The notes beneath the pieces are model-generated. The model did no database searches. It was not told the DNA's origin and worked only from the letters and a program-made list of their open reading frames with translations. This document shows positions 7,597 through 49,725 of a stretch of DNA of 64,000 bases, one piece after another. The DNA comes from Mycolicibacterium flavescens. Lineage in GTDB: Bacteria > Actinomycetota > Actinomycetes > Mycobacteriales > Mycobacteriaceae. Position numbers and translations under genes: made by a program. Numbering within the stretch: the stretch's first letter is position 1; the number at the start of each line of letters is the position of its first letter. Location of the stretch: assembly GCF_001722335.1 (NCBI RefSeq), contig NZ_MIHA01000014.1:1-64000 (forward strand). Direction: 5' to 3'.

Positions 7597-7618
7597 GCGT
7601 CTGGGGGTTCGGGCGCCG

Positions 7619-7671
7619 AGTGGCCACTTGCCGCGCGGAATCCGCTCGGACGCGCCACATAACTGGCCACC
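7619..7671 (-). repeat. 53-bp spaced inverted repeat, copy 1
   Basis: The outer arms are AGTGGCCACTT (7619-7629) and AACTGGCCACC (7661-7671), separated by 31 bp. The same 11-31-11 layout occurs at 48168, 48252 and 49216, all in the same orientation. This copy begins 22 bases after the antiporter stop codon. Its loop differs most from the other three. Confidence 0.8.
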
Positions 7672-7740
7672 CGCGGGACAAGCTTGAGGCCCGCGATAAT
7701 CACAGGCGGCTACCAGGATGGCGGGTCTAACGTGGACACA

Positions 7741-47111: not shown

Positions 47112-47172
47112 CTAGCGGGCAGGCACCTACACCAGCCTGTCGGTTGCGTTCCGCTTGTCGGAGGCAGTGATT

Positions 47173-48180
47173 ATGCTCGCCGCCATGACGGTCCTGACCC
47201 GCGAGGTCGATGACGGCAGCGCTGCAGACGCCTTTCTCGCCGATGCTCAGCAGTACCGCAGGGAACTGCTGGCGCACTGCTACCGGATGACGGGTTCACT
47301 GCATGACGCTGAGGATCTGGTCCAGGAAACCTATCTGCGTGCGTGGAAGTCGTACAACAACTTTCAGGGCAAATCGTCGGTGCGGACGTGGTTGTACCGG
47401 ATCGCCACCAACACCTGCCTGACGGCGCTGGACAGCCGCCAGCGCCGGCCGCTGCCGACGGGGTTGGGGGCGCCGAGTTCGGACCCGACCGATGACATCG
47501 TCGCGCGCGGTGAGGTGCCGTGGCTGGAGCCGCTGCCGGACGATTCGACGGACCCGTCGAACATCGTGGGCTCGCGGGAGTCGGTGCGGTTGGCGTTCGT
47601 CGCGGCGCTGCAACATCTCTCACCGCGCCAGCGCGCGGTGCTGGTGTTGCGGGAGGTGCTGCAGTGGAAGGCGGCTGAGGTCGCGGATGCCATCGGCTCG
47701 TCCACCGCGGCGGTCAACAGCTTGCTCCAGCGGGCCCGCGCGCAGCTCGACGAGGTCGGGCCCAGCCAGGACGACGGGCTGCAACTGCCGGACTCCGCGG
47801 AAGCGCAGGATCTGCTGACGCGCTACATCGATGCGTTCGAGAGCTACAACATCGAGCAGCTGGTCGAGTTGTTCACCGCGGACGCGGTCTGGGAGATGCC
47901 GCCGTTCGATGGTTGGTACCAGGGCCCGCAGGACATCGTGCTGTTGTCGAAGACGCACTGCCCGGCGCAGGGCCCTGGGGACATGCGGTTCCTGCGGACC
48001 ACCGCCAATGGTCAAACCGCTGCGGCGGTGTACCTGCTCAACAGGGAGACGGGTGTATTCGAGCCGCTGCAGTTGCACGTGCTGGCCATTGGCAGTGACG
48101 GGATCAACCATGTGGTGGCGTTCCACATGACGAGCTTCGAGAAGTGGGGCCTACCCGACACTCTTCCAGTGGCCACTTAA
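47173..48180 (+). CDS. sigG: ECF RNA polymerase sigma factor SigG
   Basis: A 335-residue ECF sigma factor. Region 2 is LAHCYRMTGSLHDAEDLVQETYLRAWKSYNNF; region 4 is LSPRQRAVLVLREVLQWKAAEVADAIGSSTAAVNSLLQRARAQL. A SnoaL/NTF2-like domain follows (residues ~210-335), as in SigG and related C-terminally extended ECFs, which often work without a separate anti-sigma. GGAGG (47160-47164) is best spaced for the ATG at 47173. The last four codons and the stop lie inside a 53-bp repeat (48168-48220). Corresponds to Rv0182c. Confidence 0.92.
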   Translation: MLAAMTVLTREVDDGSAADAFLADAQQYRRELLAHCYRMTGSLHDAEDLVQETYLRAWKSYNNFQGKSSVRTWLYRIATNTCLTALDSRQRRPLPTGLGAPSSDPTDDIVARGEVPWLEPLPDDSTDPSNIVGSRESVRLAFVAALQHLSPRQRAVLVLREVLQWKAAEVADAIGSSTAAVNSLLQRARAQLDEVGPSQDDGLQLPDSAEAQDLLTRYIDAFESYNIEQLVELFTADAVWEMPPFDGWYQGPQDIVLLSKTHCPAQGPGDMRFLRTTANGQTAAAVYLLNRETGVFEPLQLHVLAIGSDGINHVVAFHMTSFEKWGLPDTLPVAT

Positions 48181-48220
48181 GCAGCGTCAACCCGCAAAAC
48201 CCGCGCGACAACTGGCCACT
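48168..48220 (-). repeat. 53-bp spaced inverted repeat, copy 2
   Basis: AGTGGCCACTT (48168-48178) and AACTGGCCACT (48210-48220), 31-bp loop. It overlaps the last codons and the TAA of sigG. Read on the minus strand it keeps an open frame ending Ala-Ala-stop, as in copies 3 and 4. Confidence 0.85.
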
Positions 48221-48251
48221 CGCGAGAATTGGGCTTGCCCAACCCCCCGCC

Positions 48252-48304
48252 AGTGGCCACTTACGCAGCAAGATCCTCCAGAATTTGCGCGACAACTGGC
48301 CACT
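48252..48304 (-). repeat. 53-bp spaced inverted repeat, copy 3
   Basis: AGTGGCCACTT (48252-48262) and AACTGGCCACT (48294-48304). It forms the 3' end of the DUF559 gene: the frame reads EWPVVAQILEDLAA, then the TAA falls within the left arm. It lies 31 bp from copy 2. Confidence 0.85.
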
Positions 48305-49142
48305 CGGCGCCGGCCTGATGCAGCGCCTGGCACACCCGCATCAGGATCACATGCGGCCTGAACCGCAGCATCTCAGCACTGACCCGGATGATCAGCCAGC
48401 CGCGTGCCTGCAACTGTGCTTGCCGCTCGATGTCCTTGGCCCGGATGAACGGGTCCGTCCAATGCTGGGCGCCGTCGTACTCGACGCCGACCTTGAACTC
48501 CTCGTAACCCATGTCGATCCGCCAGATGTCCACGCAGATCTGCGTCTGCGGTCTCGGCAACCCGCCCTCGATCAGCACCAGCCGCGTTCGCGTCTCCTGC
48601 GGCGACTCCGCACCGGTGTCCATCACCGCCAACGCGCGGCGCAACTGCACCAACCCTCGAACCCCCGGGTGGTCCTCGATCACGTTCCCCACAGCCGCCG
48701 GGGCCAGGCCGGTGGCGCGTCCGAGGGCATCCAGCCGCGTGACCGCTTCGACGTAAGGTCCCCACCGACCCAGGTCGAACGCCGTGCGTGCCGGCGTCGT
48801 CAGCTTGATGCCCCGCGCCGACGTCACTTCGTGGTCCAACAACTCATCGCGGTGGATCAGAATCCCGCGAGTCGGCTTGCCGTTGCGGCGGAACATCTCG
48901 GCGGGCAGGTGCTTGTCGATCCACTCGGTCTCGTACAACGCCGCCGCGGACAGACCGCCCATCGTCGCCTGCCGTCCCGACCACAGCCATGCCGCGACCG
49001 CCCTGCTGCTCGCAGTCAGCTCCGCGTCCTTCGACAGGTAGACGTCGCGGTAGATGCGGTCGTTTCGACTCAGCAGTGTGCGTGGCCCGAACAGCCTGCT
49101 CGTCAACGCCTCAGTCCCCAGAAACGGCTGGTCGCTTCTCAT
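48261..49142 (-). CDS. DUF559 (Vsr-like PD-(D/E)XK) nuclease-domain protein
   Basis: A 293-residue protein. The C-terminal DUF559 domain, related to Vsr and other PD-(D/E)XK nucleases, has GVEYDGAQHWTD as likely catalytic acidic site and ERQAQLQARGWLIIRVSAEML. The N-terminal ~180 residues resemble the AbiEi-like antitoxin-type winged-helix part (LTTPARTAFDLGRW). The ATG start is followed by MRSDQPFLGTEAL. Copies of the 53-bp repeat flank it: copy 3 is its 3' end and copy 4 lies 73 bp before its start. Such genes are numerous in mycobacteria and have no assigned function. Confidence 0.78.
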   Translation of the reverse strand: MRSDQPFLGTEALTSRLFGPRTLLSRNDRIYRDVYLSKDAELTASSRAVAAWLWSGRQATMGGLSAAALYETEWIDKHLPAEMFRRNGKPTRGILIHRDELLDHEVTSARGIKLTTPARTAFDLGRWGPYVEAVTRLDALGRATGLAPAAVGNVIEDHPGVRGLVQLRRALAVMDTGAESPQETRTRLVLIEGGLPRPQTQICVDIWRIDMGYEEFKVGVEYDGAQHWTDPFIRAKDIERQAQLQARGWLIIRVSAEMLRFRPHVILMRVCQALHQAGAEWPVVAQILEDLAA

Positions 49143-49215
49143 GGATCGACCGTCGCCGCCGGCACCGACAACTCCGCCCGACGAGCCAACAGTTATCCAC
49201 AGGGCTAGGACGCCG

Positions 49216-49268
49216 AGTGGCCACTTATGCAGCGCGATCCCGCGAAACCCGCGCGATAACTGGCCACT
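49216..49268 (-). repeat. 53-bp spaced inverted repeat, copy 4
   Basis: AGTGGCCACTT (49216-49226) and AACTGGCCACT (49258-49268). On the minus strand it begins 10 bases after the marR stop and reads EWPVIARVSRDRAA-stop in the same frame as the DUF559 gene end. Confidence 0.85.
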
Positions 49269-49278
49269 CGGCCAAAAG

Positions 49279-49725
49279 TCAGCCGGCCAACCGTCCGAGC
49301 ATCGCGTCCAGCACCTCTCCGAACGCCTCCAACTGCGTCGGCGACAGACCCTCGAACACCGTCGTCCGCACCAACTCGACGTGCCCCGCCGCCGCCTTCT
49401 CCAAGGTGGTGCGGCCGCCGTCGGTCAGCGAGACACTCGCTCCGCGGCGGTCGTCGCCGCTGTCCCGACGCTGCACCAGGCCGCGGCCGCGCATCCGGCG
49501 GATCTGGTGCGACAGCCGGCTCTGCTCCCACCCGAGCGTGTCGGCCAGCTCGTTGACCCGCTGCTCGCCGCGTTCGGACAGCGCGACCAGCACGTCGTAG
49601 TCTGCCAGCGACAGCTCGCAGTCCTGCTGAAGTTGTCGGTGCATCGCGGTCTGCAGCAGGCTCGTCGCCGCCAGATACTTCCGCCACACCTGCTGCTGCT
49701 GCGCCGTCAACCACACGGAATACAT
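49279..49725 (-). CDS. MarR-family transcriptional regulator
   Basis: A 148-residue MarR protein: winged helix with ADYDVLVALSERGEQRVNELADTLGWEQSRLSHQIRRM and the wing DDRRGASVSLTDGG. It is divergent from the pirin gene, with a palindrome directly at its start, so it probably controls the pirin/beta-propeller operon and itself. MarR proteins near pirins often respond to phenolic or oxidative signals. Confidence 0.88.
   Translation of the reverse strand: MYSVWLTAQQQQVWRKYLAATSLLQTAMHRQLQQDCELSLADYDVLVALSERGEQRVNELADTLGWEQSRLSHQIRRMRGRGLVQRRDSGDDRRGASVSLTDGGRTTLEKAAAGHVELVRTTVFEGLSPTQLEAFGEVLDAMLGRLAG

Follow-up and report, generated by a model that had tools for sequence, protein, structure and literature searches.

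An apparent and probably selfish partnership, hitherto undescribed, between a DUF559 nuclease gene and the inverted repeats around it in mycobacteria and related bacteria

We analysed a 64,000-nucleotide stretch of Mycolicibacterium flavescens (contig NZ_MIHA01000014.1, positions 1 to 64,000; hereafter the window), in which copies of a spaced inverted repeat, here called a dyad, lie at gene 3' ends and on both sides of a DUF559 nuclease gene. The features concerned are:

7614..7676, unstranded: solo dyad between the antiporter gene and an LLM-type gene (so named by reading only)
47155..48180, plus strand: ECF-type sigma factor with a SnoaL domain ('sigG'; Pfam Sigma70_r2, r4_2 and SnoaL_2)
48163..48225, unstranded: the second of two dyads in tandem, lying at the 3' end of the sigma-factor gene and providing its TAA stop
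48247..48309, unstranded: dyad downstream of DUF559, encoding its last residues AEWPVVAQILEDLAA and stop codon
48261..49142, minus strand: DUF559/MTES_1575 protein of 293 aa (Pfam, PADLOC and fold matches)
49211..49273, unstranded: dyad upstream of DUF559, ~70 bp before its start codon and also 3' of marR
49279..49725, minus strand: MarR-family regulator (Pfam MarR_2)

The original prediction described four repeat copies with an exact layout of 11-bp arms around a 31-bp spacer. Three such copies are exact (48168-48220, 48252-48304 and 49216-49268), against none expected by chance in 100 dinucleotide shuffles; the fourth (7619-7671) is genuine and is one base off in the right arm, with C instead of T as the final base. 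These arms merely form the centre of a larger unit, a dyad of ~63 bp with two 25-bp half-sites around a 13-bp spacer. Alignment of 49 copies gave the consensus CGCCGAGTGGCCACTTATGnCACGC-13 nt-GCGTGnnATAACTGGCCACTCGGCG, in which the core columns are invariant since the search pattern demanded them; it left the outer CCGA..TCGG and inner CACG..CGTG columns free to vary. In the window dyads the half-sites are identical at 14 to 19 of 25 positions, and a half-site scan of the window found no dyads beyond these four pairs at a loose cut-off that gave 7 pairs in 5 block-shuffled windows. The shared orientation claimed for the copies says little for so nearly symmetric a dyad: by hand count over 72 copies found with an open pattern, the orienting position is C..C or G..G in 30 and paired in 42.

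The predicted positions relative to stop codons were correct, with copies 22 bp past the antiporter stop and 10 bp from the marR stop, the sigma-factor TAA within 48168-48220 and the DUF559 stop within 48252-48304. Because the stop codons of the sigma factor (TAA, 48168-48180) and of DUF559 both come from dyads, these elements are able to rewrite the C-termini of neighbouring proteins. What the original prediction overlooked is the main point: the dyads belong with the DUF559 nuclease gene that they flank, the copies at 48252 and 49216 bracketing it (48261-49142).

By fold matches, the DUF559 protein has a probably AbiEi-like N-terminal part (~1-174) and a nuclease part resembling Vsr and I-Bth0305I (~178-278; model numbering, to which 1 is added for the full protein). 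In Pfam it matched DUF559 above the cut-off (3.4e-6) and MTES_1575 just below it (2.6e-9, 37.5 bits, cut-off 38.2), and PADLOC matched residues 25-135 to AbiEi (7.6e-10). The nuclease part has a Vsr-like catalytic fold with the conserved E, D, H and D residues of the EDxHD type, and its closest fold is a homing endonuclease. Scans of Pfam, NCBIfam and PADLOC gave the protein no name other than DUF559, MTES_1575 and AbiEi-like, and a sequence search of solved structures returned a single weak, unrelated match (E 0.58). DUF559 matches are multicopy, at 2-19 per genome in 60 of 60 genomes of the genus.

The association of dyads with DUF559 genes is strong and general, and we regard the pairing as well supported. 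Among 47 loci taken as mycobacterial and fetched solely for the repeat, 10 carried DUF559 no more than ~110 bp from it. We then compared flanks at 71 loci (the better DUF559 matches plus the window), which came to 69 genes after removal of one duplicate and one short upstream flank. A gene's own upstream and downstream flanks aligned with a mean score of 55.3, versus 22.9 between genes; the own flank was the best partner in 35 of 69 genes and within the top three in 50, and a score of at least 40 was reached by 46/69 own pairs versus 0/68 control pairs taken 360-620 bp away. Roughly one third to half of DUF559 genes stay below 40. An ungapped dyad finder proved too crude (26/138 flanks at 9 or more versus 2/138 shuffled), and flank-to-flank alignment was used instead. 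Other genomes of the order, with protein identities of 31-42%, behaved alike: the own flank ranked first in 14 of 23, and scores of at least 40 were found for 12/23 own flanks versus 4/506 between genes and 0/22 far controls. For Humibacillus/Intrasporangium, 9 of 11 loci were analysable, with the own flank first in 7 and at 40 or above in 4. Three DUF559 homologues from this group (L286, L287 and L290) are edged by tandem arrays of short repeats, which are alike on each side in L286 and L290.

The dyad sequence varies by DUF559 lineage (for example TGGCCA, GTGGGTTACC, AACGTCGAGTTGTTG and CGAAACTGA), and dyad similarity increases with protein identity, the overall correlation being modest (Spearman 0.225). 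The TGGCCA type clusters on the DUF559 protein tree (10 labelled rows; L146, which has this type downstream and an upstream flank beyond the fetched region, was left unlabelled). In one genome, G022, matching flanks of their own were seen for six DUF559 genes. Upstream dyads mostly lie within ~200 bp ahead of the start codon. We found the GTGGGTTACC type in 6 of 118 genomes; all six have a DUF559 gene flanked by it, the flanks in G077 being near-variants of the strict pattern; by coordinates, 6 of its 23 copies are within 120 bp of the matching gene and 17 are not, some of which may adjoin an unlisted DUF559. TGGCCA solos were present in 13 of the 18 genomes in which a matching DUF559 was seen, versus 7 of the 100 in which none was, in a table compiled by hand from the flank and pattern searches and over genomes that share ancestry. 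Those seven (G046, G077, G079, G082, G105, G109 and G127) have one to three TGGCCA copies each, and dyads in such genomes may have persisted beyond loss of the gene; G077 also has a DUF559 fragment adjoining the sigma gene (L226).

The family is dispersed, with copies in many genomes rather than confined to the window. A strict pattern scan of genome contigs returned 105 stretches; among the 80 listed, 38 are labelled Mycobacteriaceae (mostly 51 bp) and 16 Humibacillus/Intrasporangium (mostly ~42 bp), and the remaining 26 look like scattered chance matches. A pattern that allowed any base at the mismatch position had 72 occurrences among 118 genomes of the genus, spread over 22 of them with a maximum of 15 per genome, and a reversed control pattern had none in the same 118. 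We examined 69 dyad places with a home-made gene caller and found 20 at DUF559 and 49 solo. The random scatter relative to stop codons that would have counted against the predicted 3'-end placement was not seen: 43 of the 49 solos are no more than 25 bp from a stop codon, against 26.2 in the same-gap null (sd 2.1, maximum 35). Between tandem genes, 22/24 are close to the stop of the upstream gene (null 9.8); 4/48 lie between divergent genes and 7/49 have a start within 25 bp. One genome has two identical dyads (G045:C1:2705-2755 and 5777650-5777700), which possibly reflect a recent copy event or a local duplication. In Humibacillus/Intrasporangium (L008-L099), strict copies group at total lengths of 41-45, 50-53 and 62, in steps of roughly a helical turn, which would suit a protein that binds duplex DNA from one side; the two copies of 62 bp may be related by descent. 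A phage origin was rejected, with a single viral contig in the IMG/VR scan: L339 (3284-3329), the only one in that collection with a TGGCCA dyad.

Both a solo and the DUF559-plus-dyads unit vary in presence among relatives. Of the genomes compared, G022 is the nearest; it is colinear with the window, at 83-88% identity. Among 30 loci fetched for the 7619 copy, 12 were comparable on both sides, and the dyad is missing from all 12, as is any DUF559 gene; the gap there is 20-93 bp versus 144 in the window. The suggestion of a mobile unit is thus plausible. For the slot between the sigma factor and marR, 96 of 118 genomes matched and 30 orthologous loci were fetched, 13 of which have a DUF559 gene or fragment adjoining the sigma gene. 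In L209 and L210 the sigma factor is followed directly by marR, with neither gene nor dyad; the DUF559 in L217 belongs to a different lineage and has a different dyad type, and L207 has a single degraded dyad, alone. The number of dyads at the sigma junction also varies, with two in the window, one in G022 and extras in L224 and L225.

A role in termination or mRNA stability had been proposed for the arms, and the dyads can possibly form hairpins. Three of the four dyads in the window form more stable folds than shuffled sequences on one or more of the strands tested (both strands for two of the four): z is -5.3 (plus) and -6.7 (minus) for 49211..49273, -4.5 for 48247..48309, and -0.7 (plus) and -2.9 (minus) for the solo at 7614..7676, and the tandem dyad at 48163..48225 folds like its shuffles (-1.0, one strand tested). 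Rfam gave 0 matches above the gathering score in the window, and by reading of the sequence, rather than a terminator scan, there is no T-run on either side of the four dyads. Covariation is weak (paired cells 84.5% versus 83.3% shuffled, 17/500; covariation score 11/500). A stem mismatch occurs in 30 of 72 copies, and independent half-sites of frequency 0.69 predict 30.6 by hand calculation; a conserved, REP-bulge-like mismatch, seen at first, was an artefact forced by the first search pattern. Weak covariation and a mismatch column that fits independent half-sites favour recognition of half-sites in duplex DNA, and together with the lack of a T-run they speak against termination or mRNA stability as the primary function.

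On balance, and by a narrow preference, we favour an explanation in which the DUF559 nuclease has the dyads around its gene as cognate DNA sites, the two forming a two-part selfish system that resembles repetitive extragenic palindromes (REPs) and their REP-associated tyrosine transposases (RAYTs). The AbiEi-like domain would bind each half-site, and therefore two DUF559 protomers would occupy each dyad. This is a natural model given that the AbiEi-family protein Rv2827c recognises, in its own promoter, paired inverted repeats of 23 bp with a 13-bp gap (PMC7319586) and that I-Bth0305I forms a dimer on a target almost 60 bp long (PMC3943268). Occupancy of the upstream dyad would repress DUF559's own promoter, and the EDxHD-type nuclease domain, held at a dyad, would cut DNA. 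By analogy with REP/RAYT systems, we infer that the nuclease disperses the dyads: repair of the break would copy or move them, at times with the gene, to new sites, and copies behind stop codons would persist as they do little harm there.

Known systems share parts of this arrangement. In REPtrons, REPINs and TIRtrons, palindromes flank the enzyme gene and the palindrome family differs per enzyme (PMC3733652, PMC3116915 and PMC8266576), and REP solos are found where genes converge or downstream of genes in tandem, <20 bp from stops in the species covered there (PMC3733652, PMC3116915); dyad solos are likewise extragenic and near gene 3' ends (43/49 within 25 bp of a stop). However, the enzyme here combines a nuclease of the Vsr/EDxHD fold with an AbiEi-like domain and is no HUH Y1 transposase, the dyads have a 25-13-25 geometry with few strict copies per genome, and they lack the GTAG or CGTC tag, as defined in PMC3733652, the consensus ending CGCCGA..TCGGCG. 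Without a Y1 transposase or tag, the pair is not a REP/RAYT member; in our reading it would work most like a REPtron built on a different enzyme. AbiE type IV toxin-antitoxin systems resemble the pair in their antitoxin (AbiEi, Rv2827c), to which the N-terminal part appears similar, and in an operator made of paired inverted repeats, 13 bp apart for Rv2827c and 3 bp apart for AbiEi (PMC7319586). Here that part is fused to a nuclease, dyads flank the gene at either end and are dispersed, and no DUF1814 nucleotidyltransferase toxin gene stands beside the window DUF559, whose neighbours are the sigma factor and MarR; the window locus is not an AbiE system.

Homing alone is the main rival, though an unlikely one. 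A free-standing homing endonuclease would cut alleles that lack it (the sigma factor-marR junction, for example) and be copied in with its flanks by recombination, the dyads serving as operator or protection sites and the solos being scars of lost genes. The nearest fold, the variable presence of the gene-plus-dyads unit between a conserved pair of genes (L209 and L210 lack it), and the lone degraded dyad at that site in L207 all agree with this. DUF559 differs from I-Bth0305I and Vsr in its AbiEi-like DNA-binding domain in front and in its matching dyads on both sides and dispersed, with no intron or intein noticed. A lost-gene scar fits poorly with the 7619 solo, given 12 comparable relatives with neither that dyad nor a DUF559 there, and genomes with one matching gene seen have several solos (5 in G071, 13 in G098). 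We think it improbable that the dyads are simply operators of the AbiEi-like domain, the gene regulating itself and the solos marking a regulon. AbiEi and Rv2827c do autoregulate through inverted repeats (PMC7319586), and upstream dyads mostly stand within ~200 bp ahead of the start codon, yet solos fall behind stops, seldom between divergent genes or near starts; DUF559's own 3' end also has a matching dyad, and the 7619 solo is absent in relatives.

The two remaining explanations set the nuclease aside. That the dyads are terminators or mRNA 3'-end hairpins, with a secondary association with DUF559, would agree with their placement and with the folding of three of the four in the window; given window copies without T-runs, weak covariation and a lineage-specific pairing with DUF559 that it leaves unexplained, we consider it quite improbable. 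We give the least credence to REPs moved by an unseen RAYT (a Y1 tyrosine transposase) or other transposase with DUF559 as a passenger. The placement does resemble that of REPs (PMC3733652), but the dyad type follows the DUF559 lineage, and a search for Y1_Tnp, the one transposase family covered, found no match in 14 of 15 dyad-carrying genomes; G031, the sole exception, has a match split in two pieces. A RAYT of the Y1 kind is thereby largely refuted as the mobiliser.

With the dyads read as its cognate sites, DUF559, a large group of nuclease genes so far without an explanation, gains a concrete partner and a testable role. We found no prior description of this pairing in the open-licence PMC literature, which is weak as evidence of absence. 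The nuclease and its own tag sequence appear to be an undescribed pair, probably selfish, in mycobacteria and related bacteria. We suggest more tentatively, with confidence a little short of even, that DUF559/MTES_1575 proteins with an AbiEi-like domain are a second, independent class of bacterial palindrome-mobilising enzymes, with a Vsr-fold nuclease that this DNA-binding domain directs to lineage-specific 25-13-25 dyads, a claim that includes REP-like spread across the order of mycobacteria and relatives and several co-evolving pairs per genome. The many natural nuclease-dyad pairs of differing specificity would be a resource for studying the co-evolution of DNA recognition, and the finding suggests that the REP/RAYT lifestyle has arisen more than once, with unrelated enzymes.
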